Below, one piece after another: positions 9,601 through 29,410 of a stretch of DNA of 33,521 nt (within the stretch, counting starts at the first letter, position 1; every line of letters begins with the position of its first letter). The DNA is from Bacillota bacterium. GTDB taxonomy: Bacteria > Bacillota > Thermosediminibacteria > Thermosediminibacterales > Thermosediminibacteraceae. A program made the translations under genes and the position numbers. Where the stretch lies: positions 1-33,521 of the forward strand of contig QGUT01000007.1 of the NCBI GenBank assembly GCA_003242255.1, in the 5' to 3' direction. A model generated the notes under the pieces. It saw only the letters and a program-made list of their open reading frames with translations, ran no database searches and had not been told where the DNA came from.

Positions 9601-10110
9601 TTGGACGCATTATTAGGTTATTTCTTCATTTTTTTTGCCCGGGTATGCGATGTCTCTCTGGCGACGGTGCGAACCTTAATGGTGGTCAGGGGAAACCGGC
9701 TACAAGCGGCTATTATAGGCTTTTTTGAGGTCATAATATACATAACGGCACTCAACGAAGTCGTTGGAAAGCTGAATAATCCGTTTAATCTCCTCGTCTA
9801 CGCTGTGGGCTTCGCCACGGGAAATTACGTGGGAAGCCTGATCGAGGAGAAACTGGCCCTGGGACTCACTACCGTACAGGTGGTGACGAAGGACCCCGAA
9901 CTTTGCAACAAGATAAGAAATCTGGGCTATGGAGTCACGGCACTCAATGGTTTTGGCAAGGAGGGCACCCGCCACGTGCTCTTGATTTCTCTGGCGAGGA
10001 AAAACGTGCCCGATTTGATAAGTTACGTAGAAAGCGAAGATGAATCGGCCTTCGTCACTATAATGGATACAAAGTCGGTTAAAGGGGGATACTTTAAACA
10101 GTCCAAGTGA
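9601..10110 (+). CDS. UPF0316 / DUF2179 membrane protein
   Basis: A 169-residue protein of unknown function. The N-terminal half has three hydrophobic membrane segments (start LLGYFFIFFARVCDVSLATV), the DUF5698-like part. The C-terminal half is a soluble alpha/beta DUF2179 domain (about residues 95-165, GYGVTALNGFGKEGTRHVLL), a small ligand-binding-type domain also found on YitT proteins. Start is TTG 9601, behind GGGAGG with normal spacing. Conserved in Bacilli and Clostridia; the role is not established. Confidence 0.88.
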   Translation: MDALLGYFFIFFARVCDVSLATVRTLMVVRGNRLQAAIIGFFEVIIYITALNEVVGKLNNPFNLLVYAVGFATGNYVGSLIEEKLALGLTTVQVVTKDPELCNKIRNLGYGVTALNGFGKEGTRHVLLISLARKNVPDLISYVESEDESAFVTIMDTKSVKGGYFKQSK

Positions 10111-10112
10111 CC

Positions 10113-10187
10113 CTTAAGGCATAAAACGCCCCTTTTTTTAAATATTATTAATTAGATTTCGGAAAAGGGGGTTGTTTTATGCCTAAG
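10113..10187 (+). promoter_or_regulatory. Long hairpin covering the gerM ribosome site and start codon
   Basis: The left arm (10113-10136) and right arm (10163-10187) are inverted copies: CTT, AGGCATAAAAC and CCCCTTTT pair, about 22 base pairs with one bulge and a small internal loop, around a 26-base AT-rich loop. The right arm contains the AAGGGGG ribosome site and the ATG of gerM. In RNA reading through from the upstream gene this would hide the start of translation. The T-run lies in the left arm, so it is not a standard terminator. Confidence 0.6.
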
Positions 10188-11174
10188 AAATTTTTAGCGT
10201 GGTTGGCAGGGACTCTTTTTATCCTCGCTTTTTTTGTGGCCTGCGGCTTTTTGGAAGACAAAAGCGCAACTTCGCCGGAAGGCGCCGATTCTGCCCTGGA
10301 AACCCAGGCCAACATGCGAAAGACGGTGCTTTATTTTGTAAATCAGCAGAATCTGCTGGTCCCGGTGACGAAGGACATACCGTGGGTGGAGGGAATCGGC
10401 AGGGCCGCTCTGGAAAATCTCGTATTCACTGAGGAAAGGGGAAAGGAGCTGGAAGATCAGGGGCTCAAACCGCCCTTGCCCGAGGGGACGAGGGTATTGG
10501 GATTGACCATAAGGGAAGGGCTGGCCAAGGTGGACTTCAGTCACGAATTTCTGAACCTGAAGGACAGGATCGAAGAGGAAAATGCGATAAAAGCCGTGGT
10601 TTACACCCTCACCGAATTCCCGACGGTTGAGCGGGTGCATTTCATGGTAGAAGGCAAACCTTTGAAAAAATGCCCCAACGGCACCACTTTGGAAGATGAA
10701 GTAAAGCGCGAAAAGATAAACCTGGAAGACCAGAAAACCGGAGGCGACAACGTCCCCGTGACCTTGTATTTCAGAGCATCCAGCAGCGACGGGACCTTTT
10801 CCTATTTCGTCCCGGTCACCCGGATGGTTGAAAAGAGCGACGATATGATGAGAGTCGCCCTGGAAGAATTGATCAAAGGACCGAAAAAAGAAATGGGTTT
10901 GACTTCGGTCCTGCCGGCCGACACGAAGGTGATCAGCTTAACTCAGAGCGGTGGCGAAGTGATAGTCAATTTTTCTAAAGAAATAGAGGGTTACGGCGGT
11001 GGCGTTGAAAGCGAACAGGCTCTGGTGGATTCCATAGTCCTTACTCTATCCGAATTTCCCGGGGTAGAAAAGGTCACGCTGCAGGTGGAGGGTGAGAGCG
11101 GGGTACTGCCTGAGGGAACCATGCTGGACGCTCCCATTCTAAAACCTGCTTATATAAACCCAGACTTTATCTAA
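10179..11174 (+). CDS. gerM: GerM-like lipoprotein with two GerMN domains
   Basis: Probable sporulation and germination lipoprotein on the outer face of the membrane. In Bacillus, GerM helps the forespore-mother cell channel complex assemble. The 331-residue product has a lipoprotein signal with cysteine at residue 22 (FFVAC). It then has two copies of a GerMN domain, about residues 45-165 and 190-320. Each contains a VNFS/VDFSHEF strand followed by [18 protein letters not shown] or [18 protein letters not shown]. Next to rph, rdgB and ysnB as in Bacillus subtilis. Its ribosome site and ATG lie in the right arm of a long inverted repeat. Confidence 0.85.
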
Positions 11175-11193
11175 ATCGGAGAGGATGATTTTA

Positions 11194-11931
11194 TTGGCAA
11201 GAGTTGACGGCAGGGAGTACAACCAGATAAGGCATGTAAAAATAACCAGGCACTTTAACAAGTATGCCGAAGGTTCGGTGCTCATTGAAGCCGGCGACAC
11301 CAAGGTAATATGCACCGCGACCGTAGACGATAGAGTTCCTCCATTCCTGAGGGGCAAAGGGCAGGGCTGGATTACGGCCGAATATTCGATGCTGCCAAGA
11401 TCTACGGAAATCCGCAATGTGAGGGAAACCCTGCGTCCGAGCGGCAGGACCATGGAAATACAAAGGCTGATAGGAAGGGCCTTGCGGTCAGTGGTGGACC
11501 TGTCGGCCATGGGGGAGAGGACGATATGGCTGGACTGCGATGTGATCCAGGCCGACGGAGGAACCCGGACGGCGGCCATAACCGGGGCTTTCGTGGCTCT
11601 TGTGGATGCTTTCAAGCATCTGAAGGATAAGGGAGTCCTCGAGGTGATTCCCGTCAACAGCTTTGTGGCGGCAGTGAGCGTTGGCATTGTCGAAGGACAG
11701 AAATTGCTGGATTTGAATTTCAACGAAGACAGCAGAGCTCAGGTGGACATGAACGTGGTGATGACCGATAAAGGACAGATAGTGGAAATTCAGGGGACAG
11801 GCGAGGCCTTTCCTTTTACCCGCCAGGACCTGGACGAACTCCTGGACCTGGCCTGCAAGGGCATAGCCGACCTTATCGCAGTGCAGAAGGAAGTTCTGCA
11901 GGATATTCTGGATGAGGTCGAAAAGCAATGA
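11194..11931 (+). CDS. rph: Ribonuclease PH
   Basis: A phosphate-dependent 3' exonuclease that trims the 3' ends of tRNA precursors. The 245-residue protein covers the family from [14 protein letters not shown] through the phosphate-site region [19 protein letters not shown] to the C-terminal [17 protein letters not shown] prefer TTG 11194, which gives the usual MARVDGR-type start and normal spacing from GGAGAGG; the in-frame ATG at 11185 touches the ribosome site. The stop codon overlaps the rdgB start (ATGA). Confidence 0.93.
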
Positions 11932-12566
11932 AGAGCATAGTGGTGGCCACAAAGAACCGCGGCAAGCTGAAAGAATTTCAGGAAATGCTTCGCGATGTCC
12001 CGCTGAAGCTGCTGTCGCTCCTCGATTATCCGGCCATCGAAGTGGAAGAGAACGGTAAGACCTTCGAAGAAAACGCCTTGATTAAGGCGAAAAAGGTCGT
12101 GGAGTTGACTGGAAGGGCGGCCTTAAGCGACGATTCGGGGCTGGAAGTGGAGGCCTTAGGGGGGAGGCCCGGGGTGTACACAGCGAGATACGCGGGGCCT
12201 GCTGCTTCCGACCGGGAGAACATCGAAAAGCTTTTGAAAGAACTCGATGGCGTCCCTCAAGAAGAGAGGAAAGCCCGATTCGTATGCTGCCTCTGTTTCG
12301 CCCTCCCCGATGGGCGAATTTTTATCGAGCACGGTTATTTAGAAGGATATATTACCTTTGAGCCGAAAGGCAGTATGGGATTCGGGTACGATCCTGTTTT
12401 TTTTGTACCGGAACTTAAAAAGACCCTGGCCGAGGCGGGGCTGGAGGAAAAAAACTCGGTGAGCCACAGAGCTCGGGCTATGGAAAAGATGAAAAAACAT
12501 CTTTTGCAATTTGCGAAGAGTATTCATGGAAGCGGAGGGGCAGTGCTTGAGGATAGCGGTAATTAG
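11928..12566 (+). CDS. rdgB: XTP/dITP pyrophosphatase (RdgB/HAM1 family)
   Basis: Hydrolyses non-canonical purine triphosphates (dITP, XTP) to monophosphates, keeping them out of DNA and RNA. The 212-residue protein shows the substrate motif [11 protein letters not shown] at the N-terminus, FEENALIKA, the metal-binding [11 protein letters not shown] and the C-terminal SHRARAM. Known as ysnA in Bacillus. The start overlaps the rph stop by four bases and the end overlaps the next gene by 20 bases. Confidence 0.93.
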
Positions 12567-13020
12567 CGATACTCACGGCTTTCTGCCGTTGATAGATAGG
12601 GCTTTGGAATTGGCAGGTCAGGTGGATTTGGTTTTTCACGCAGGGGACATATCGCCCGATGCCGATTACATAAGGGAAGCGTACGGCTACAAAGTTTACG
12701 GCGTTTTGGGAAATTGCGATACTTTTTCGGACTACCCGGGAGAGCGGCTCATAAGGCTGGAAGGGAAGAAGATTTTTCTCACTCACGGCAATGCGTACCG
12801 GGTAAAGCGAGGACCTGAGAGGTTGCTGGCCCGGGCTCAGGAACTTTCAGCCGATGTGGTGGTCTTCGGGCACACTCACTGTCCTGAAAATTTCTGGCAT
12901 AACGGTATTTTCGTCTTCAACCCGGGCAGCCTGGCGTTTCCCCGGGGCTCCAAAAGGCCTACTTTCGGCATTCTGGAGTTGAATAAAGGAGAGATAAAAG
13001 GCTCTATTTTGGAACTTTAA
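12547..13020 (+). CDS. YfcE/YsnB-like metallophosphoesterase
   Basis: A small two-metal phosphodiesterase of the MJ0936/YfcE family; the natural substrate is unknown. All metal motifs are visible in 157 residues: SDTHG (7-11), HAGDIS, GNCD, LTHGN and GHTH. TTG 12547 is chosen because it gives [11 protein letters not shown] and sits after GGAGGGG; the longer in-frame start at 12511 lies deep in rdgB. It overlaps rdgB by 20 bases, so coupling is likely. The order matches ysnA-ysnB in Bacillus. Confidence 0.88.
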   Translation: MRIAVISDTHGFLPLIDRALELAGQVDLVFHAGDISPDADYIREAYGYKVYGVLGNCDTFSDYPGERLIRLEGKKIFLTHGNAYRVKRGPERLLARAQELSADVVVFGHTHCPENFWHNGIFVFNPGSLAFPRGSKRPTFGILELNKGEIKGSILEL

Positions 13021-13039
13021 CAGGGGGTGTTGGAGGACC

Positions 13040-14002
13040 GTGAGGAAGATCCTGTTTGGGGATAAGGTTTCCGAAAAACATCTCCAGAAGACCAGGGAAA
13101 TTGCACCGGATTGGGACATAGTTATATGCGAAAACCCCGAAGATAAATTGAGGCACGTACAAGATGCAGAAATATACGTGGACTGGGCTATGAATATCGA
13201 AAGGCGTTTTATCGAAGCTGCGGAAAAATTAAAATGGATACAGGCGCTGTCGGCCGGCGTTGACGGGCTCGCCTTTGACCTGGTAAGACAAAAAGGAATA
13301 ACTGTGACCAATACCAGCGGAATCCATAAAGTGCCGATTGCCGAGATGGTTTTCGGATATATGTTGATGTTTGCCCGGGGACTTAACCGGTTTTTCGGCC
13401 AGCAAAAAAATAAGGTCTGGGATAAGAGTATACGGACTACGGAGCTCTTCGAAAAAACTCTTGGAGTTGTGGGGACGGGGAATATCGGAAACGAGATAGC
13501 CCGGCTGGGCAAAGCTTTCGGCATGAAGGTCCTGGGCCTCAACAGCAGCGGCAGAATACCGGCAGATTGTCCGGGCCTTTACGACGAAATATACGGCATA
13601 AATTCGCTCTTCGAGCTTCTCTCGAACTCCGATTTTGTGGTTTGCGCCTTACCCCTTACCCCTGAAACCCATCACCTTTTCAAAGAAGAGCAATTTAAAG
13701 CCATGAAGCCATCGGCCTACTTTATAAACATAGCCCGGGGGGCTGTGGTCGATGAAAGGGCCCTGGAGAGGGCGCTCGCGGAGGGCTGGATAGCAGGAGC
13801 GGCCCTGGACGTCTTCGAGAGGGAGCCCCTGCCATCGGAAAGTCCCCTTTGGGAAATGCCCAACGTCATCGTAACTCCCCACGTAGCGGGCAGTTCCAAT
13901 CGTTACATGGAGAGGGCCATGAAGGTGGTAAACGAAAACCTGCAAAGATACCTGAAAGGGGAGCCGTTGATAAATGTGGTCGACCCGGTCAGGGGATACT
14001 GA
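13040..14002 (+). CDS. D-2-hydroxyacid dehydrogenase (NAD-dependent)
   Basis: An oxidoreductase of the D-isomer-specific 2-hydroxyacid dehydrogenase family. The 320-residue protein has the NAD motif VGTGNIGNEIA (144-154) and the catalytic triad R233 (NIARGA), E262 (FEREPL) and H281 (TPHVAGSS). It lacks the ACT or extra C-terminal domains of SerA, so it is closer to glyoxylate/hydroxypyruvate or phenyllactate-type enzymes; the substrate is not readable. GTG start at 13040 with GGAGG only three bases upstream. Last gene of the gerM-rph block, ending eight bases from the end of the opposing serA. Confidence 0.85.
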   Translation: MRKILFGDKVSEKHLQKTREIAPDWDIVICENPEDKLRHVQDAEIYVDWAMNIERRFIEAAEKLKWIQALSAGVDGLAFDLVRQKGITVTNTSGIHKVPIAEMVFGYMLMFARGLNRFFGQQKNKVWDKSIRTTELFEKTLGVVGTGNIGNEIARLGKAFGMKVLGLNSSGRIPADCPGLYDEIYGINSLFELLSNSDFVVCALPLTPETHHLFKEEQFKAMKPSAYFINIARGAVVDERALERALAEGWIAGAALDVFEREPLPSESPLWEMPNVIVTPHVAGSSNRYMERAMKVVNENLQRYLKGEPLINVVDPVRGY

Positions 14003-20827: not shown

Positions 20828-20876
20828 TTGGTAAAAAGTATCTACTTTATTCTATAAGGTTGGTACTTTTTCCCAA
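20828..20876. promoter_or_regulatory. Paired upstream activator sites of the glp sigma-54 promoter
   Basis: Two inverted copies of one 17-bp dyad: TTGGTA-AAAAG-TATCTA (20828-20844) and, on the other strand, TTGGGA-AAAAG-TACCAA (20876-20860). Their centres are 32 bp apart, about three helical turns. The first is centred 71 bp before the GG of the -24 box. The same dyad precedes dhaK, which suggests binding sites for the activator encoded between them. Confidence 0.65.
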
Positions 20877-20905: not shown

Positions 20906-20921
20906 TGGCATAAATTTTGCA
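20906..20921 (+). promoter_or_regulatory. Sigma-54 promoter of the glp-like operon
   Basis: TGGCATAAATTTTGCA contains the -24 GG (20907-20908) and the -12 GC (20919-20920) with the required ten bases between. It differs from the consensus TGGCAC-N5-TTGCA at one position. Confidence 0.85.
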
Positions 20922-20947: not shown

Positions 20948-21493
<546 letters not shown>

Positions 21494-21545: not shown

Positions 21546-21600
21546 TTGTGGTGGAGAAAAGGAGAACCACACCTGTAGGTGTGGTTCTCTTTACTTTTTT
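21546..21600 (+). terminator. Attenuator-like terminator before the glycerol 3-phosphate dehydrogenase genes
   Basis: A perfect 12-bp stem GAGAACCACACC / GGTGTGGTTCTC with loop TGTA (21562-21589), followed by TTTACTTTTTT. Just upstream, TGTGGT (21547-21552) can instead pair with ACCACA (21566-21571) of the left arm, giving a competing structure. It lies in the leader of the dehydrogenase gene, where GlpP-type antitermination acts in other Firmicutes. Confidence 0.8.
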
Positions 21601-21634
21601 AAAGAGGTCACTTCAATTTAAGGAGGTAATTCAA

Positions 21635-23104
21635 TTGCTAGACGTAGTCATAATAGGTGGGGGCGTCGTGGGATGCATGATTGCCCGCGAATTATCCAGG
21701 TACCAGTTAAAAGCAGTACTCCTGGAAAAGGAGGATGATGTGGCAAGCGGCACCAGTAAGGCCAACAGCGCCATCATCCACGCCGGTTACGACGCAAAGC
21801 CCGGTACCCTGAAAGCGAAGTTAAATGTGAGGGGCAACCCTCTTTTTGACATAATTTGCGGAGAACTTGATGTACCTTTTAAGAGGATAGGTTCTCTCGT
21901 TGTGGCTCTAAACGAAGAGGAGGTCAGGGCACTGGAGGAATTGCTGGAAAGGGGGAAAAGCAACGGCGTTCCAGGTCTCGAAATTATAAGCCGGGAAAGG
22001 CTGCGGGAAATGGAACCCAATGTCAACAGAGAGGCTCTGGCAGCGCTTTATGCACCTACCGCCGGTATCATATGCCCTTATGAGTTGACGATTGCTCTGG
22101 CTGAAAATGCCTGCCAGAACGGGGTAGAAATAAAATTGAATTCCCCGGTGCTAGGCGTAAGGGTGGAAAACGGTGGGGTGCTGTCCGTCAGAACTCCGGG
22201 AGAAACCCTTTACACCCGGTACATTATAAACGCTGCGGGCCTTTTTGCCGATGAGATATCGAGATTGGCGGGGGCGGAAGACTATCGCATAACGCCGCGC
22301 AAAGGAGAGTATCTCATCTTTGACAGAAGGTTTGGAGGCATAGTAAGCAGAGTGATATTCCCAACTCCTACAAAAATATCTAAAGGAATTCTCGTTTGCC
22401 CCACGGTGGATGGTAACTTTTTCATCGGTCCCAATTCCAACGATGTCGGTGAAAAGGACGACGTTGCTGTCACGCAGCAGGGGATTGAGGAAATAATTAA
22501 AGGTGCCCGCAAGCTGGTGCCGGACCTGCCTCTGAAGCATGTTATCTCCTCTTTCGCCGGATTGAGAGCCGTGTCGGATACCGATGACTTTGTCATAAGG
22601 GCATCCAAAAAAGTAAAAGGCTTTATCAATGTTGGAGGTATCCAGTCGCCTGGACTCTCCTCCGCACCTGCCATAGCCGAAATGGTCCTCGAAATTTTAA
22701 AAGAAGAGGGATTGGAGCTTAGAGAGAAAAATAACTTCAATCCCAAAAGGCCGCCAATTTTCAAATTCCGCCATCTCAGCAATGAAGAAAAGAGAGAGTT
22801 GATAAGAAAAAAACCGGCGTACGGCAGGATAATTTGCCGGTGCGAGACGGTGACCGAAGGGGAAATAATCGATGCCATCAGAAGGCCAGTGGGAGCCCGG
22901 AGCCTTGATGCCGTAAAACGTCGAACCAGGGCAGGAATGGGCAGGTGCCAGGGAGGTTTTTGCTCGCCCAGAATAGTAGAAATACTGGCAAGAGAACTCG
23001 GCATAAGTCCCCTGGAAGTTACCAAATGCGGCAGCGGTTCCGAGATACTAAAAGGGCGGACGAAAGAATTTATCGAGACAGGTGGTGTTATCAATGCAAA
23101 ATAG
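21635..23104 (+). CDS. FAD-dependent glycerol-3-phosphate dehydrogenase-like protein with BFD iron-sulfur domain
   Basis: Probably oxidises glycerol 3-phosphate to dihydroxyacetone phosphate. The 489-residue protein begins with an FAD site (VVIIGGGVVGCMIARELS) and a DAO fold (GTSKANSAIIHAGY, SSFAGLRAVSD). It ends with a BFD-like [2Fe-2S] domain whose four cysteines are C401, C403, C438 and C443 (ICRCETV, GRCQGGFC). TTG 21635 follows AAGGAGG with normal spacing; earlier in-frame codons lie in the attenuator. Together with the next two genes it forms the three-gene set seen in Clostridia and Thermotoga at glycerol loci. By annotation habit it could also be called an NAD(P)/FAD-dependent oxidoreductase. 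Confidence 0.85.
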   Translation: MLDVVIIGGGVVGCMIARELSRYQLKAVLLEKEDDVASGTSKANSAIIHAGYDAKPGTLKAKLNVRGNPLFDIICGELDVPFKRIGSLVVALNEEEVRALEELLERGKSNGVPGLEIISRERLREMEPNVNREALAALYAPTAGIICPYELTIALAENACQNGVEIKLNSPVLGVRVENGGVLSVRTPGETLYTRYIINAAGLFADEISRLAGAEDYRITPRKGEYLIFDRRFGGIVSRVIFPTPTKISKGILVCPTVDGNFFIGPNSNDVGEKDDVAVTQQGIEEIIKGARKLVPDLPLKHVISSFAGLRAVSDTDDFVIRASKKVKGFINVGGIQSPGLSSAPAIAEMVLEILKEEGLELREKNNFNPKRPPIFKFRHLSNEEKRELIRKKPAYGRIICRCETVTEGEIIDAIRRPVGARSLDAVKRRTRAGMGRCQGGFCSPRIVEILARELGISPLEVTKCGSGSEILKGRTKEFIETGGVINAK

Positions 23105-24371
23105 AGAGCTTGTTATAATTGGTGGAGGGCCTGCCGGGTTGTCTGCTGCAGTAGAAGCCCGCAGGCTGGGGATAAAAGATGTCCTCGTTATCGACAGGGA
23201 GTCGGAGCCAGGGGGGATACTGAAGCAGTGCATTCATCCAGGGTTCGGACTGCACATCTTCAAGGAAGAACTCACAGGCCCCGAATACGCGGAACGTTTT
23301 GTAAGAGAAGCCAAAAACCTCGGTGTGGAAATAATGCTTGACACTATGGCAATAGAGCTTACAGCAGACAAGCGCATAATTGCAGTTAACAGCCAGGAAG
23401 GGCTCATAGAAATCCAGGCGAAAGCGGTTATACTCGCTATGGGATGCAGGGAGAGGACCAGAGGTGCCATCAACATTCCAGGTTTCCGGCCGGCGGGTGT
23501 TTTTACCGCAGGCACGGCGCAGCGGTTTGTAAACATCGAAGGCTATATGCCTGGGCGAGAAATAGTTATCCTGGGTTCTGGAGACATAGGACTGATAATG
23601 GCAAGGCGTCTTACACTGGAGGGGGCTAAGGTCCGGTGCGTCGTAGAGATAATGCCCTACTCCAACGGCCTCACGAGGAACATCGTGCAGTGCCTGGAGG
23701 ATTACGATATACCCCTTCTTCTAAAGCACACCGTTGTAAACATCCACGGCAGAAAAAGGGTAGAAGGGGTCACCATCGCCGAAGTCGACGACAATATGAA
23801 GCCCATCATGGAGACCGCGAAATTCATACCCTGCGATACGCTTCTGTTATCCGTAGGCCTGATACCGGAAAACGAACTTTCCAGGATGGCGGAGATTCAA
23901 ATAGACGAGGTCACTGGAGGTCCGGTGGTAAACCAGCGGATGGAGACGTCGGTTCCTGGAATTTTCGCCTGCGGCAATGTGCTGCACGTCCATGACCTGG
24001 TGGATTTCGTCACCCGGGAAGCGATTCTAGCTGCAAGAGGAGCCGCCTCATACCTGGCAGATTCGGATAAAAAATATGACTACGTACCCGTCGTAGCGGG
24101 AGACGGATTGAGATACGTGCTGCCTCATAGGATAAATATAGAAGCTATGCCGGAGAAAAGGCAGACCTTCTTCATGCGGAGTGTCAAACCCATGGCAAAG
24201 GCAAGGCTTTCTATTGAATCAGAAAAGGGCGTAATAAAATCCAGGGTGATGAGATACGTCAAGCCCAGCGAGATGTTAAGCATCCCCATTGACCGCGATG
24301 AAATGAAAGGGATTAAAATTTTAAAATTCAACCTTCAGGAGGAAGGTGACAGCGTTGAGCGCGGTGAATGA
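23094..24371 (+). CDS. FAD/NAD(P)-binding oxidoreductase partner subunit
   Basis: A 425-residue pyridine nucleotide-disulphide-type flavoprotein. The FAD motif IIGGGPAGLSAAVEAR is at the N-terminus, a second dinucleotide fold (IVILGSGDIGLIMARRL) lies near residues 158-175, and the FAD-closing motif GIFACGNVLHVHDLVD near 295. No redox-active CxxC disulphide is seen. The ATG at 23094 follows AGGTGGTG, and the gene overlaps the preceding one by 11 bases. It probably passes electrons between the dehydrogenase and NAD or another carrier; the acceptor is not known. Confidence 0.87.
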   Translation: MQNRELVIIGGGPAGLSAAVEARRLGIKDVLVIDRESEPGGILKQCIHPGFGLHIFKEELTGPEYAERFVREAKNLGVEIMLDTMAIELTADKRIIAVNSQEGLIEIQAKAVILAMGCRERTRGAINIPGFRPAGVFTAGTAQRFVNIEGYMPGREIVILGSGDIGLIMARRLTLEGAKVRCVVEIMPYSNGLTRNIVQCLEDYDIPLLLKHTVVNIHGRKRVEGVTIAEVDDNMKPIMETAKFIPCDTLLLSVGLIPENELSRMAEIQIDEVTGGPVVNQRMETSVPGIFACGNVLHVHDLVDFVTREAILAARGAASYLADSDKKYDYVPVVAGDGLRYVLPHRINIEAMPEKRQTFFMRSVKPMAKARLSIESEKGVIKSRVMRYVKPSEMLSIPIDRDEMKGIKILKFNLQEEGDSVERGE

Positions 24372-24720
24372 AGAAAAGAGTGTAACTTGTATTGTATGCC
24401 CTAGGGGTTGCAGAATCAAGGTGAGTATAAAAGGAGGTGAGATAATCAGGATCAGTGGCAACCTTTGCAAGAGGGGCGCCGATTATGCTAGATCTGAGGT
24501 GACACAGCCCATGAGGGTGCTTACAACTACAGTGCGGTTGGAAGACGGCCACTTGTTGCCCGTGAAGACAGCTCGCCCAATACCTAAGGAGTTGCTTTTT
24601 GAGGCTGTGAGGGAACTGAGCGGCGTGAGGGTCAAAGGACCGATAGAAATCGGCCAAGTAGTTTACTCTAACGTGGCCGGTACCGGTGTCGATGTGGTGG
24701 CTACCCGTAGTTGGAACTAA
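24355..24720 (+). CDS. DUF1667 four-cysteine iron-sulfur protein
   Basis: A small (121-residue) third subunit of the glycerol 3-phosphate oxidation set. The N-terminus holds C12, C15 and C19 (CIVCPRGC) and C38 (NLCKRG), a pattern like the cluster site of molybdopterin oxidoreductases and suited to one [4Fe-4S] cluster. The rest is the DUF1667 fold (PMRVLTTTVRLEDG, PVKTARPIPKELLFE). Start is uncertain: TTG 24355 has the best spacing from GGAGGAAGG, GTG 24346 lies three bases from AGGAGG. It overlaps the preceding gene. A role in electron transfer is inferred. Confidence 0.85.
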   Translation: MSAVNEEKSVTCIVCPRGCRIKVSIKGGEIIRISGNLCKRGADYARSEVTQPMRVLTTTVRLEDGHLLPVKTARPIPKELLFEAVRELSGVRVKGPIEIGQVVYSNVAGTGVDVVATRSWN

Positions 24721-24733
24721 AATACCGGCGGTG

Positions 24734-26419
24734 ATGAGCGTGCATAAAAAGGAGGTCCTTTTTAAAAACAAGAAAGGTCTTCATATCAGAGCAGCCGCTA
24801 TGCTGGTTCAAAAAGCCTACGAGATGCAAAAGGAGCTGGACGCCAATCTTTATGTGAGAAAGCATAAGGGCCACGAAGTGCCTGCAACGGCTCTCATGGC
24901 CCTTTATTCCCTGCACATAAAGCCTGGAGATAAAATTACGGTGCTTGCGACAGGTGCTGATGCGGGGACGGCCTTGGAAAGGTTTTCAAGATTGCTGGAA
25001 GGCGATTTGACACCAAAAGATCTTGATGAGAACGATAAAATAGATTCCATATTAGAAGAAAATGCTCTGACATCCGATGTAATCTTTGACAGCATAACTG
25101 ATGGCCTCATAGTCGTAGATACAGATTCCACAGTTACAGTCTTTAACAGAGCCGCGGAAGAAATCACCGGGGTGCCCAGAGCCCTGGCAGTGGGGAAAAA
25201 TCTCAACTTTATACTTCCTGGAACCGGGATAGATAGGATACTGGATGGCGGAAAAGGGGAATACGAAAGGAAAAAGGTCTTTAACGGCCGACCGGTAATA
25301 GCCGACCTGGTGCCGATAATAATAGATAAGAAAATAATAGGGGGAGCAATAATTTTTCAGGATGTTTCCCGCATGGAGAGGCTTTTGAGAGAAATGAAGG
25401 ACTTCAACGAAGCAGTGGCACGAGCCGAATATCTGGAAGAAGAGCTCATGAGGAGTAAAAAGCTAGACAGGGCCTTTGACGAGATAGTAGGCAGGAGTGG
25501 GAAACTATTGGATGCCCTGGCTATAGCCTCTAAAGCCGCTGCCACGACTTCTACGGTTCTCATCAGAGGCGAAAGCGGCACGGGGAAAGAACTAGTAGCT
25601 AGAGCCATCCATTGTGCAAGCAAGAGGAAAGACGGACCGTTTATCCGGGTGAACTGTCCGGCTATTCCCCAGACACTGTTGGAGAGCGAGCTTTTTGGCC
25701 ATGAAAAAGGTGCATTCACTGGAGCGCTATACCAAAAAATAGGTAAATTCGAACTGGCCGACGGAGGTACGATTTTCCTCGACGAGATCGGCGAAATGGG
25801 AAAGGACATGCAGACCAAACTTCTGAGGGTACTGCAGGAGAAAGAGTTCGAAAGGGTTGGAGGAAATCAGACCATAAAAGTGGATGTCAGAATCATCGCA
25901 GCTACCAACAGAAACCTGGAGGAGATGATAAAAAAGGGGGAGTTTAGAGAAGACCTTTACTATAGGTTAAATGTGGTCCCCATTTTCCTGCCCAGCCTCA
26001 GAGAGAGGAAAGAAGACATACCCCTTCTGGCGGAACATTTTAGGGAAAAGTTATCAAAGGCACTGGGGAAAAATGTAACAACTATAACACCCAGAGCCAT
26101 GAGGTGCTTGATGAGTTACGATTGGCCTGGAAATGTGAGAGAGTTGGAAAATATAATTGAAAGGGCTATCAACCTCACTGATGATGTAGAAATCGACATA
26201 GATGACCTACCTTCTTATATAAGCGGGCAGGAGAGCAGTGACTCCGGCCACCTCATTAACTTGAGTGGAGACGGTGAAATAGCACCACTCGAGGAATACG
26301 AAAAAGAGATCATCAGAAAGGCTTTAAAAAAGTACAGGAGCTTCAATGCTGCGGCTAAAGTACTGGGCATCACCCATAAGACTGTTGCCGCCAAAGCCCG
26401 TAAGTATGGATTGATATAG
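24734..26419 (+). CDS. Sigma-54 enhancer-binding activator with HPr, PAS, AAA+ and Fis domains
   Basis: A 561-residue transcription activator, probably controlling both sigma-54 promoters of this island. Domains: HPr-like at 1-88 with the phosphorylatable histidine H17 in KGLHIRAA, but alanine where HPr has Ser46 (VPATALMA); PAS about 113-215 (SITDGLIVVDTDSTVTVFN); AAA+ about 250-475 with Walker A GESGTGKE (279-286), the sigma-54 contact GAFTGA (326-331) and Walker B TIFLDEIG; a Fis-type helix-turn-helix at the C-terminus (NAAAKVLGITHKTVAAKA). The AAA+ part resembles DhaR/AcoR-type regulators. ATG 24734 has only a weak ribosome site; GTG 24731 is an alternative. It ends two bases before the dhaK upstream site. 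Confidence 0.92.
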   Translation: MSVHKKEVLFKNKKGLHIRAAAMLVQKAYEMQKELDANLYVRKHKGHEVPATALMALYSLHIKPGDKITVLATGADAGTALERFSRLLEGDLTPKDLDENDKIDSILEENALTSDVIFDSITDGLIVVDTDSTVTVFNRAAEEITGVPRALAVGKNLNFILPGTGIDRILDGGKGEYERKKVFNGRPVIADLVPIIIDKKIIGGAIIFQDVSRMERLLREMKDFNEAVARAEYLEEELMRSKKLDRAFDEIVGRSGKLLDALAIASKAAATTSTVLIRGESGTGKELVARAIHCASKRKDGPFIRVNCPAIPQTLLESELFGHEKGAFTGALYQKIGKFELADGGTIFLDEIGEMGKDMQTKLLRVLQEKEFERVGGNQTIKVDVRIIAATNRNLEEMIKKGEFREDLYYRLNVVPIFLPSLRERKEDIPLLAEHFREKLSKALGKNVTTITPRAMRCLMSYDWPGNVRELENIIERAINLTDDVEIDIDDLPSYISGQESSDSGHLINLSGDGEIAPLEEYEKEIIRKALKKYRSFNAAAKVLGITHKTVAAKARKYGLI

Positions 26420-26421
26420 GC

Positions 26422-26438
26422 TTGGTAAAAAGTATCAA
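26422..26438. promoter_or_regulatory. Upstream activator site of the dha sigma-54 promoter
   Basis: TTGGTAAAAAGTATCAA, dyad TTGGTA-N5-TATCAA. Fifteen bases (TTGGTAAAAAGTATC) are identical to the site at 20828. Its centre is 72 bp before the -24 GG, nearly the same distance as at the glp promoter (71 bp). Confidence 0.7.
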
Positions 26439-26500: not shown

Positions 26501-26516
26501 TGGCACAAGTTTTGCA
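26501..26516 (+). promoter_or_regulatory. Sigma-54 promoter of dhaKLM
   Basis: TGGCACAAGTTTTGCA matches the consensus TGGCAC-N5-TTGCA fully, with GG at 26502-26503, GC at 26514-26515 and ten bases between. The dhaK start is 46 bases downstream. Confidence 0.93.
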
Positions 26517-26561: not shown

Positions 26562-27560
26562 ATGAAAAAATTGATAAACAATCCCGAAGTCGTCGTTGAG
26601 GAAATGCTGGAGGGTATGGTCAGGGCATTTCCGCAGTATGTTAGAAAACTTGATGGCTACAACGTGATAGTGCGGGCCGATGCTCCGGTAAAAGGAAAGG
26701 TGGCGCTGGTTTCCGGTGGAGGTAGCGGCCACGAGCCTTCTCACGCCGGATACGTCGGTAAAGGAATGCTGGATGCTGGCGTAGCCGGTGCTGTATTTAC
26801 TTCCCCTACCCCGGACCAAATCTTCGAGGCGATTAAAGCCGTCGACGGCGGCGCAGGAGTGTTACTGGTTATAAAGAATTACACCGGCGATGTAATGAAT
26901 TTTGAGATGGCCGGTGACATGGCTAGAGCCGAGGGAATAGAAGTCGCCAGCGTAATCGTCAATGATGACGTGGCGGTGGAAAACAGTACGTATACGGTGG
27001 GAAGAAGGGGCATAGCTGGTACGGTCTTCGTGCACAAAATCGCCGGGGCCAAAGCCCAAGCCGGCGGGACGCTGGAAGAGGTCAAAGCAGTAGCTGAAAA
27101 GGTCATTAAAAATGTGCGGAGTATGGGAATGGCACTGACACCGTGCATAGTACCGGCTGCAGGAAAGCCTACTTTTACTATTGGCGACGATGAAATGGAA
27201 ATAGGTATGGGCATTCATGGAGAGCCGGGTACCATGAGGACAAATATTATGAAAGCTGATGAAATTGTAGATCACCTTATGTCAAAAATCCTCGTCGATT
27301 TACCCTTCGAACCGGGAGCTGAGGTAGCGGTGATGGTAAATGGACTGGGCGGCACCCCGCTAATGGAGCTTTTCATACTGAACAGAAGAGTTAGCCAGAT
27401 TCTCGACGATAAGGGAATAAAAGTATACCGCACCTATGTGGGAGAATTTATGACTTCCTTGGAGATGGCAGGGGCATCCATCACGCTTCTGAAACTGGAT
27501 GACGAACTCAAATCCCTTCTAGATGCGCCTGCGGACACTCCTGCATTCAAACAATTATAA
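26562..27560 (+). CDS. dhaK: PTS-dependent dihydroxyacetone kinase, DHA-binding subunit DhaK
   Basis: Binds dihydroxyacetone covalently as a hemiaminal on a histidine, for phosphorylation by DhaL-ADP. In the 332-residue protein this histidine is H219 in GIHGEPG. The substrate loop SGGGSGHEPSHAGYVG (about 51-66) with H57, and NYTGDVMNFEMA, are present. Length fits DhaK alone, without the ATP-dependent kinase domain. ATG 26562 follows GGAGGTGG with proper spacing. First gene of dhaKLM. Confidence 0.95.
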   Translation: MKKLINNPEVVVEEMLEGMVRAFPQYVRKLDGYNVIVRADAPVKGKVALVSGGGSGHEPSHAGYVGKGMLDAGVAGAVFTSPTPDQIFEAIKAVDGGAGVLLVIKNYTGDVMNFEMAGDMARAEGIEVASVIVNDDVAVENSTYTVGRRGIAGTVFVHKIAGAKAQAGGTLEEVKAVAEKVIKNVRSMGMALTPCIVPAAGKPTFTIGDDEMEIGMGIHGEPGTMRTNIMKADEIVDHLMSKILVDLPFEPGAEVAVMVNGLGGTPLMELFILNRRVSQILDDKGIKVYRTYVGEFMTSLEMAGASITLLKLDDELKSLLDAPADTPAFKQL

Positions 27561-27582: not shown

Positions 27583-28221
27583 ATGGCGGTAGATTCTGTA
27601 AAACTCATCGATATAATAAAGGTTATTGCAGATAAGATAACCGAAAACAAGGAATACCTTACCCAACTGGACTCGGCTATAGGGGATGCCGATCACGGGA
27701 TAAATATGAGCAAGGGGTTCAGGACTGTAGTCGAAAAGATATCTGATATGAGTGAAAAAGACTGCGGCACAATACTGAAGACCGTTGGTATGACGCTGGT
27801 CTCTACTGTCGGCGGAGCTTCCGGGCCGCTTTACGGCACTGCTTTCATGAGAGCAGGGCAGGCAGTGGCCGGAAAGCACCAGTTGGATTTCAACGACCTC
27901 ATTTCAGTGATGGAAGCAGCCCTTGAAGGAATAAAATATCGCGGCAAAGCAGAAAAGGGAGAAAAGACCATAGTGGATGCTCTGGAACCTGCGGTAGAAA
28001 CTCTAAAACTGTGCCGCGAAGAAGGCCTCGAAACCGCGCTGCGGGAAGCGGTGGAAGCGGCACGAAGAGGAATGGAATACACCAAGGAAATAGTAGCCAG
28101 GAAAGGAAGAGCCAGTTACCTGGGGGAAAGAAGTTTGGGCCACCAGGACCCAGGTGCCACATCATGTTATATAATACTTGAAGCCATGGCCACCCAGCTC
28201 CTGGATGACAAAAAATCTTAA
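27583..28221 (+). CDS. dhaL: Dihydroxyacetone kinase, ADP-binding subunit DhaL
   Basis: Carries a tightly bound ADP that accepts phosphate from DhaM and passes it to dihydroxyacetone on DhaK. The 212-residue protein has the magnesium-binding aspartates D30, D35 and D37 in LDSAIGDADHG, the nucleotide-site GGASGPLYGTAF, and the C-terminal LGHQDPGATS. ATG 27583 behind GGGAGGAG. It lies 22 bases after dhaK. Confidence 0.95.
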   Translation: MAVDSVKLIDIIKVIADKITENKEYLTQLDSAIGDADHGINMSKGFRTVVEKISDMSEKDCGTILKTVGMTLVSTVGGASGPLYGTAFMRAGQAVAGKHQLDFNDLISVMEAALEGIKYRGKAEKGEKTIVDALEPAVETLKLCREEGLETALREAVEAARRGMEYTKEIVARKGRASYLGERSLGHQDPGATSCYIILEAMATQLLDDKKS

Positions 28222-28233
28222 GGGGGCCTTTCT

Positions 28234-28629
28234 ATGGTGGGCATAGTGCTCGTATCCCACAGTCCCCGTATAGCAGAAGGAACGCTGGACCTCGTCAGGC
28301 AGATGGTAGGCGATAAAGTGCCCATTGAAATTGCAGCAGGTACGTCTGATGGCAGGCTGGGCACCGATGCGGCGGCGGTAGAGAAAAAAATCAGGAAAGT
28401 TCACAGAGGAGACGGAGTGCTGATTATGGTGGACCTGGGCAGTGCAGTACTGAGCGCCGAATTCGCCATCGAAAATCTGGAAGAACCGCTTAGATCAGCA
28501 ACGGCAATAGCCGATGCACCTTTCGTGGAAGGAACGGTGGCAGCAGCCGTTGAGGCCAGTTTCGGCAAGAGCCTGGCCGAAGTCAGGGCGGCGGCCGAAG
28601 GTGTAAAAGCGTACAGCAAGCTGGGTTGA
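28234..28629 (+). CDS. dhaM: DhaM, single-domain EIIA-mannose-type phosphocarrier
   Basis: Passes phosphate from HPr to DhaL. At 131 residues it has only the EIIA-Man-like domain, with the phosphorylatable H9 in VLVSHSPRIAEG and VDLGSAVLSAEFA. The HPr and Enzyme I domains fused to DhaM in Escherichia coli are missing, so phosphate must come from separate PTS proteins. ATG 28234 follows AGGGGG; 12 bases after dhaL. Notably the nearby activator carries an HPr-like domain. Confidence 0.93.
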   Translation: MVGIVLVSHSPRIAEGTLDLVRQMVGDKVPIEIAAGTSDGRLGTDAAAVEKKIRKVHRGDGVLIMVDLGSAVLSAEFAIENLEEPLRSATAIADAPFVEGTVAAAVEASFGKSLAEVRAAAEGVKAYSKLG

Positions 28630-28821: not shown

Positions 28822-28898
28822 CGAGGCATGGCGCAGTTTGGTAGCGCACATGGTTTGGGACCATGGGGTCGGGGGTTCGAGTCCCTCTGCCTCGACCA
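28822..28898 (+). tRNA. tRNA-Pro (TGG)
   Basis: The acceptor stem pairs CGAGGCA with TGCCTCG; the anticodon loop TTTGGGA gives TGG, reading CCA. CCA end encoded. Confidence 0.96.
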
Positions 28899-28903
28899 TG
28901 CGT

Positions 28904-28979
28904 GCGGGAATAGCTCAGGTGGTAGAGCACCAGCCTTCCAAGCTGGGTGCCGCGGGTTCGAGTCCCGTTTCCCGCTCCA
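28904..28979 (+). tRNA. tRNA-Gly (TCC)
   Basis: The acceptor stem pairs GCGGGAA with TTCCCGC; the anticodon loop CTTCCAA gives TCC, reading GGA. CCA encoded. Confidence 0.96.
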
Positions 28980-28987
28980 TAAGATAC

Positions 28988-29064
28988 GCGCCCGTAGCTC
29001 AGTAGGACAGAGCAACGGACTTCTAATCCGTGGGCCAGGGGTTCGAATCCTCTCGGGCGCGCCA
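28988..29064 (+). tRNA. tRNA-Arg (TCT)
   Basis: The acceptor stem pairs GCGCCCG with CGGGCGC; the anticodon loop CTTCTAA gives TCT, reading AGA. Discriminator G, CCA encoded. Confidence 0.96.
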
Positions 29065-29074
29065 TGCTCAACAT

Positions 29075-29152
<78 letters not shown>

Positions 29153-29167
29153 TTTATTTTTTTGCTT

Positions 29168-29241
29168 TGGGGCGTAGCCAAGAGGTAAGGCACGGGACTT
29201 TGGATCCTGCATCGTAGGTTCGAATCCTACCGCCCCAGCCA
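29168..29241 (+). tRNA. tRNA-Gln (TTG)
   Basis: The acceptor pairs TGGGGCG with CGCCCCA; the anticodon loop CTTTGGA gives TTG, reading CAA. Discriminator G, CCA encoded. Confidence 0.95.
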
Positions 29242-29248
29242 AAATAGC

Positions 29249-29324
29249 GGGCCATTAGCTCAGGCGGTAGAGCACCTGACTTTTAATCAGGGTGTCGGAG
29301 GTTCGAGTCCTCCATGGCTCACCA
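29249..29324 (+). tRNA. tRNA-Lys (TTT)
   Basis: The acceptor pairs GGGCCAT with ATGGCTC (one G-U); the anticodon loop CTTTTAA gives TTT. CCA encoded. Confidence 0.96.
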
Positions 29325-29326
29325 TT

Positions 29327-29410
29327 GCGGGCGTGGCGGAACTGGCAGACGCGCCAGACTTAGGATCTGGTGGGTTTCCCGTGGAGGTTCAAATCCTCTC
29401 GCCCGCACCA
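29327..29410 (+). tRNA. tRNA-Leu (TAG)
   Basis: An 84-base class II tRNA with a long variable arm (TGGGTTTCCCGTG). The acceptor pairs GCGGGCG with CGCCCGC; the anticodon loop CTTAGGA gives TAG, reading CTA. It starts only two bases after tRNA-Lys. CCA encoded. Confidence 0.96.

Follow-up and report, generated by a model that had tools for sequence, protein, structure and literature searches.

A sigma-54-dependent activator that carries its own HPr domain lies between glp genes and dhaKLM in the stretch of DNA analysed here (the window; 33,521 nucleotides), and this arrangement raises the question of whether the regulator takes its signal directly from the phosphotransferase system (PTS) and which operons that signal would reach. 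A preliminary description had proposed that the HPr domain is phosphorylated by Enzyme I and may exchange phosphate with DhaM, such that the use of dihydroxyacetone sets the activity of the regulator for both operons. We consider it rather probable that the protein is a sigma-54 activator with direct PTS phosphate input through its own HPr domain, controlling dhaKLM and glp.

Domain structure of the activator

The activator and its domains were located as follows.

24734..26419, + strand: sigma-54 activator of HPr-PAS-AAA+-Fis order, 561 aa, from the ATG at 24734 to the stop codon that ends at 26419
24746..25000, + strand: HPr domain (genome-wide PF00381 search, E 9.9e-19; modelled fold resembles solved HPr)
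25079..25369, + strand: PAS domain (Pfam); a predicted helix (residues 97-119) connects it with HPr
25484..25984, + strand: AAA+ sigma-54 interaction domain (PF00158, E 9.5e-75; GAFTGA at residue 326)
26288..26413, + strand: Fis-type helix-turn-helix (PF18024, PF02954)

In the Pfam search, whose residue numbers for this protein count from residue 2 (add 1 to count from the ATG), PTS-HPr spanned residues 4-88 (E 1.2e-17; 64.2 bits against a cut-off of 23), PAS approximately 115-211, Sigma54_activat 250-416 and HTH_50/HTH_8 518-559, in agreement with an HPr domain previously read from the letters at residues 1-88. The AAA+ assignment is carried by PF00158 at 250.3 bits, with Walker A at 279, GAFTGA at 326 and Walker B at 345. 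The order of an N-terminal HPr, a central AAA+ and a C-terminal DNA-binding domain is that of the HPr-bearing sigma-54 activators of Clostridia. Within the HPr domain, H17 (codon 24782-24784; His15 of HPr) stands inside KKGLHIRAAA, R19 keeps the Arg of HPr position 17, and HPr position 18 is Ala instead of Pro. Ala53 (codon 24890-24892) aligns to HPr Ser46, such that the Ser targeted by HPr kinase is absent; domain order, retained His and replaced Ser are all as first described.

AlphaFold modelling of the N-terminal 126 residues gave a pLDDT of 83.7, and in Foldseek this model aligned with solved HPr structures at a probability of 1.00, a best E of 5.2e-07 and TM scores, taken by target length, of up to 0.91. 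A sequence profile of the N terminus likewise matched solved HPr structures. The model of the whole activator (mean pLDDT 83.2; pTM 0.48) places a helix at residues 97-119 between HPr and PAS, the relative placing of the domains being unreliable at this pTM. None of the NCBIfam models listed for the activator scored above its cut-off, the best being PrdR (NF041552; 455.6 against 795). The DhaR model (NF008485) reached 251.7 against a cut-off of 551 and aligned only residues 113-559, from the PAS domain onward; given this score, and given that E. coli DhaR has neither GAFTGA nor HPr, identification of the activator as DhaR was rejected.

Conservation of the HPr phosphorylation site

Conservation was assessed in two sets of sequences. 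The first comprised 23 HPr activators, namely the window's and those of the 22 loci that carry the HPr motif among the 67 returned by the relative search. The second comprised 46 distinct HPr domains of activators (44 listed by residue pattern, the window's and that of L012). It leaves out activators known only as search rows (e.g., G031, G032 and G037), and as the pattern demanded small residues at positions 19-20, strongly decayed HPr domains could have escaped it.

Among the 23 activators only G13, H15, R17, A19 and A20 are invariant, all at the phosphorylation site; the chance that five random columns would all fall inside positions 13-20 is 1.4e-6. His15 is present in 46/46 distinct domains and Arg17 in 41/46, with Gln in the other five, all of family f69, and on these counts the activator HPr domain is plausibly phosphorylatable. 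Pro18 is found in 0/46, its place being taken by Ala, Ile or Val, and phosphate transfer may therefore be altered. Position 46 is Ser in 13 of the 23 activators, Ala in seven and Asn in three; Ala46 was accordingly rejected as a family-defining residue and, judged from the alignment, is a lineage trait.

These replacements bear on an alternative in which the HPr domain is a Crh-like docking surface that senses the amount of unphosphorylated Enzyme I, DhaM or HPr kinase. The loss of Pro18 from every domain, of Arg17 from five and of Ser46 (to Ala) from the window's group would suit such a surface, as would the fact that the partner's gene adjoins the activator in many genomes. The universal His15 and the confinement of the invariant columns to the phosphorylation site speak against docking, which we regard as improbable.

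The Arg17-to-Gln family occurs in the setting glp-activator-dhaKLM. Five loci (L196, L197, L202, L218 and L219) combine Gln at Arg17 with Ser or Asn at Gly13 and keep His15, and the HPr domain of L215, of the same type, still exceeds the Pfam HPr cut-off with 35.9 bits.

Genes around the activator and PTS components of the host

The genes flanking the activator are listed below.

20978..21493, + strand: glpP N terminus fused to glpK C terminus (deletion or misassembly)
21548..23104, + strand: FAD-dependent glycerol-3-phosphate oxidoreductase ("GlpA"; Pfam, NCBIfam)
23082..24371, + strand: pyridine nucleotide-disulphide oxidoreductase ("GlpB"; Pfam)
24346..24720, + strand: DUF1667 protein, immediately before the activator (PF07892, E 5.6e-32)
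26562..27560, + strand: dhaK (PF02733; TIGR02363, 518.2 bits)
27583..28221, + strand: dhaL (PF02734; TIGR02365, 261.7 bits)
28234..28629, + strand: dhaM, 131 aa, lone EIIA-man domain, H9 (PF03610; TIGR02364, 140.2 bits against a cut-off of 98.25)

The best NCBIfam model for "GlpA" was type 2 glycerol-3-phosphate oxidase, with a score below its cut-off. At the glpP-glpK junction (near 21171) three relatives (L005, L008 and L010) carry about 2.5 kb more, with matches overlapping by 0-3 bp; the fusion reflects a deletion or, the genome being fragmented and incomplete, a collapse during assembly. Seven tRNA genes stand in a row after dhaM (window 28822-29410) and three at 235-492; the minus-strand ORFs called over the 28822-29410 set are probably spurious.

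EIIA-man is the sole Pfam domain of DhaM in the window and H9 was read from the translation, which bears out its description as a bare EIIA. The DhaM ORFs of relatives measure 131-154 aa in 13 of the 14 retained by the ORF caller; in the 14th (246 aa) an early start codon was chosen and the DhaM match spans 130 residues. A short bare-EIIA DhaM thus appears to be usual among relatives. The available host genome (1.96 Mb, 81.5% complete) holds a separate HPr (C21; with His15, Pro18 and Ser46), Enzyme I (C198), HPr kinase (C131) and sigma-54 (RpoN; PF04552 matches). Since separate HPr and Enzyme I exist and a bare DhaM is ordinary, not much can be built on the contrast that had been drawn between an activator with an HPr domain and a DhaM lacking one.

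Predicted binding sites and promoters

Candidate sites upstream of the two operons were found at the following positions.

20828..20844, + strand: glp operon palindrome 1 (one mismatch)
20860..20876, + strand: glp operon palindrome 2 (one mismatch; 32 bp from palindrome 1)
20906..20921, + strand: glp operon sigma-54 box, TGGCATAAATTTTGCA (10/11 consensus positions)
26422..26438, + strand: palindrome before dhaK, TTGGTAAAAAGTATCAA (sole zero-mismatch match to TTGRTANNNNNTAYCAA in the available genome)
26501..26516, + strand: sigma-54 box before dhaK, TGGCACAAGTTTTGCA (11/11 consensus positions)

The palindrome common to relatives is TTGRTA-N5-TAYCAA, whose R and Y letters were picked after seeing the relatives. 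A search of the available 1.96 Mb with at most one mismatch returned 15 sites against 6 for a reversed control; the only exact copy is that at 26422, and two of the 14 other sites are at glp. Of the 12 sites that lie outside the window, the nine that were examined all lack a sigma-54 box within 350 bp of available sequence, which at some of them stops short at the end of a contig. Matching palindromes and sigma-54 boxes upstream of both glp and dhaK support one regulator for the two operons, as had been supposed, and we take them as predicted binding sites of the activator. The host's own ptsI and ptsH have no palindrome with one mismatch or fewer; a two-mismatch match at the start of ptsI falls, by our reading, in coding sequence, and control of these two genes by the activator is unsupported.

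All 23 HPr-activator loci contain at least one palindrome (one mismatch or fewer), accompanied at 21 of them by a sigma-54 box; L014 and L032 have no box at the threshold used, and the Halonatronum box is weak. In a survey of dhaK loci the pair was present at 15 of 41 and at none in shuffled sequences; 11 of the 52 loci were skipped as the script found no reading frame, and the 41 include second dhaK copies and activator-less genomes. Palindromes that come in twos are often spaced by 30-32 bp, or some three turns of the helix (L013, L015, L016, L023, L210, L215 and the window), with 28 bp in L017.

Neighbourhoods of HPr-bearing activators in other genomes

At the Clostridium HPr-activator loci a divergent ptsI is the PTS neighbour seen in 12/12, with no dha gene. 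The Halonatronum and Selenomonas activators have ptsH and ptsI downstream, two Heliobacterium loci read activator-dhaKLM-ptsH, and at seven loci from Thermosediminibacteraceae, Tepidanaerobacteraceae and kin, among them that of the window, the activator is preceded by glp and followed by dhaKLM.

A profile of the HPr part was searched against 398 genomes of the phylum (E 1e-14) and returned 52 rows, 29 of which are an HPr domain in an open frame of at least 549 aa, one per genome. The remaining 23, with short frames or with stop codons within the match, were set aside as ordinary HPr; the four that were checked (L198-L201) are 83-89% identical to the host's own HPr, with no activator. By raw count, 28 of the 29 HPr activators adjoin dhaK and/or ptsI, and the 29th (G027) is split over contigs, with dhaKLM and an HPr gene on another contig. 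Nine of the 29 lie beside dhaK (class survey). Among 19 fetched loci (L203-L221, with coordinates given in the activator's orientation), seven contain ptsI or ptsH-ptsI without any dha gene over the 14 kb read (L203, L210-L214 and L221), four have dhaKLM, ptsH and ptsI together (L205, L207, L208 and L209), L204 has dhaM, dhaL, dhaK and ptsH beside the activator, and seven have dhaKLM without ptsI in the stretch (L206 and L215-L220). The domain order was found repeatedly beside dhaKLM; many copies adjoin ptsI or ptsH-ptsI, which supports a link of the activator to Enzyme I.

Across 26 genomes of the host's class, an HPr activator was found in 17, dhaK in 20 and Enzyme I in 23. Each of the 17 activator-bearing genomes has dhaK, against 3/9 without the activator (one of the three a fragment); Fisher's exact test gave p 0.0004, which is only a guide as the genomes are related. 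In 16/17, dhaK shares a contig with the HPr part and lies no more than about 3.4 kb from it. Enzyme I is likewise present in 16/17, and none was found in G043 (83% complete). A palindrome lies within 450 bp at all 16 class dhaK loci beside an HPr activator, with a plausible sigma-54 box at 12 of them (two of the 12 with 8/11 positions); a thirteenth candidate (L147) was judged implausible. The class genomes G048 and G040, which have intact dhaK and no HPr activator, show neither palindrome nor box at dhaK. In genomes with a ptsI-type activator, a palindrome was present at two of seven main dhaK loci (L086 with a box, L088 without) and absent from L084, L085, L089, L094 and L096.

In some members of the order an ORF of 572-579 aa separates the activator from dhaK, at these positions.

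L007, 8729-10447: 572-579 aa ORF
L009, 8729-10447: 572-579 aa ORF
L168, 4639-6378: 572-579 aa ORF
L172, 5580-7313: 572-579 aa ORF

The L007 copy has a methyl-accepting-chemotaxis signalling domain and a phosphonate-type substrate-binding domain, the other copies having been assigned by look only, and L006 has, by eye, a possible broken remnant of this ORF in the same place. Two conserved large genes of one family's loci (L215-L220, approximately 9700-13700) lie downstream of dhaKLM; one of them begins, by eye, like an Hsp70/DnaK-type ATPase (GIDLGTTNTV).

HPr-less relatives and the history of the fusion

Activators without HPr lie in or beside glp clusters at 15 of the 67 loci, and 12 of these 15 are in the tree. 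The palindrome-box pair is present at 11/15, with the box upstream of the glp genes each time. At the main dhaK of genomes with HPr-less activators the pair occurs in four of the six examined (L083, L087, L091 and L093) and is absent from L095 and L097. As these relatives stand in similar clusters with mostly the same sites, HPr is dispensable among relatives and is best regarded as an added input, not as the source of dihydroxyacetone specificity.

Their existence favours an alternative in which the signal enters through the PAS domain, or through contact with DhaK/DhaL, and the HPr domain is minor or vestigial; E. coli DhaR senses DhaK and DhaL by protein contact, and in the HPr-less relatives glp or dha genes remain nearby, as do the sites in most cases. 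The HPr active site is nevertheless conserved across distant genera, and the resemblance to DhaR is below the model's cut-off and begins only at the PAS domain. We therefore judge this alternative unlikely.

The G040 activator (L172 7332-8690, 452 aa) has no HPr match, keeps the gene order and falls inside the HPr group of the tree, and may be viewed as a natural deletion variant; its dhaK has no palindrome. In G048, glp and dhaKLM stand without an activator between them. L018 (6-143) and L022 (3-236), both with HPr-less activators, show an HPr-like gene piece bordering the glp cluster on its upstream side. A first tree (55 rows), from which the HPr-less loci L026, L030 and L037 were absent because the motif filter missed them, placed the HPr fusion at one change with weak support (58/37). 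In a second tree (61 rows) the count rose to three changes, of which well-supported branches forced two or more, and these may be read as one gain and two losses of HPr.

Proposed control of the two operons

Phosphorylation of the HPr domain by Enzyme I is likely given the dhaK and ptsI neighbours, the shared palindromes and the constant His15, and on balance this phosphorylation would alter activation of both operons, the activator probably reading the phosphate level of the relay directly. We propose that the activator would bind TTGRTA-N5-TAYCAA upstream of the sigma-54 promoters of dhaKLM and glp, and that Enzyme I would phosphorylate His17 at the expense of PEP. Dihydroxyacetone use via DhaM, DhaL and DhaK would be one of several ways to drain phosphate from Enzyme I and HPr; once drained, the HPr domain would lose its phosphate, its hold on the AAA+ ring would relax and both operons would be made. 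The phosphorylation state would tune the ring through the HPr-PAS helix, with the PAS domain as a second input. Direct phosphate exchange with DhaM could occur within this scheme, which does not require it, and we put it forward only tentatively.

Seven PTS EIIC domains (PF02378) in the host genome rule out a PTS that serves dihydroxyacetone only, and they imply that sugars, too, would drain PTS phosphate. The control proposed earlier is plausible in outline, its dihydroxyacetone part being hypothetical, and three observations count against it as the whole story: HPr-less glp activators carry the site pair, sugars share the phosphate supply, and the Clostridium loci show ptsI and no dha gene.

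As to the sign of the effect, we lean very slightly toward activity of the unphosphorylated form, to which the ptsI sites of relatives point, whereas the glp genes point the other way. If active, the unphosphorylated form would switch glp on during sugar uptake, contrary to the usual catabolite repression. Catabolite control would have the opposite sign: at high PEP and in the absence of PTS sugars, Enzyme I would phosphorylate the HPr domain, the phospho-form would be active, and the glycerol and dihydroxyacetone genes would be off during growth on PTS sugars. The number of EIIC domains and the inclusion of glp, a non-PTS pathway, in the predicted regulon fit this sign, as does the activation of PRD regulators and of Firmicute glycerol kinase by phospho-HPr. 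A phospho-active form would, however, produce positive feedback on Enzyme I wherever the sites lie at ptsI or ptsH-ptsI, and we hold catabolite control to be possible but doubtful.

Quite unlikely, in our estimate, is a further reading in which the activator's HPr is a working carrier from Enzyme I through the regulator to DhaM, and the regulator reads dihydroxyacetone flux by its own turnover; if it were true, a transcription factor would be an intermediate of the phosphorelay whose genes it controls. One class genome (G033; L168) has the activator's HPr as the only HPr found, with Enzyme I and DhaM present, which may be due to an assembly gap (89% complete, approximately 490 contigs).

If direct phosphate input through the HPr domain is correct, a single protein, with neither a PRD nor an EII receptor domain, would couple sigma-54 transcription to the phosphorylation state of the PTS. 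Natural variants are at hand, which differ in the residue at position 46 (Ser, Ala or Asn), have Gln in place of Arg17 or lack HPr altogether; together with a candidate binding site they make the old idea of an HPr-gated activator testable in a laboratory host.

Comparison with known systems

The activator is real, well conserved and a variant of a described kind of regulator. As a protein type, the HPr-bearing sigma-54 activator is not new: Francke 2011 (PMC3162934), with reference to Reizer 1999, puts at 0.3% the share of sigma-54 activators that bear an HPr signal domain, and locates them in Clostridia. The window's protein resembles these type Ib activators, which have an N-terminal HPr and are counted as PTS-linked, and differs from their description in that source in its one PAS domain, its Ala at 46 and its predicted glp and dhaKLM sites. 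Nie 2019 (PMC6615313) places PTS-HPr among activator domains, its available text not assigning this domain to DhaQ itself, and predicts a sigma-54 DhaQ regulon of dhaKLM and ptsI in Acetobacterium, Clostridium and Geosporobacter; the locus is like that DhaQ/DhaR system in its predicted control of dhaKLM, and unlike the DhaQ regulon as listed there in that its predicted sites include glp, ptsH being absent from the DhaQ list too. Genes for ptsH or ptsI within dihydroxyacetone kinase clusters of other bacteria are described by Comas 2008. The open-licence literature, as far as its available text goes, yielded no experimental test of an HPr-bearing sigma-54 activator, and nothing was found there on C. 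acetobutylicum CAC3088 or on a DhaR with HPr and Enzyme I. The parts of this literature at hand likewise do not state a common palindrome at ptsI, ptsH-ptsI, dhaKLM and glp, a constant His15, or natural HPr-less and Arg17-less forms.

DhaKLM takes PEP as its phosphate donor, and E. coli DhaR is activated by dihydroxyacetone (PMC6643234). Both DhaR and the window's activator are AAA+/Fis proteins, dhaKLM being the target of DhaR and a predicted target of the window's activator. E. coli DhaR is GAF-PAS-AAA+-Fis with no HPr match, as the preliminary description had it, and has no G.F.GA motif, whereas the window's activator has both HPr and GAFTGA. E. coli DhaM (472 aa), unlike the bare EIIA of the window, carries HPr and part of Enzyme I; of the fusion to HPr and Enzyme I earlier ascribed to it, EIIA-HPr stands, but Enzyme I is represented by its N-terminal and mobile parts only, with no match to the PEP-binding C-terminal domain. 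LevR-type sigma-54 activators are likewise steered by PTS phosphorylation and, as described in Francke 2011 (PMC3162934), do so with PRD and EII receptor domains, not with HPr.
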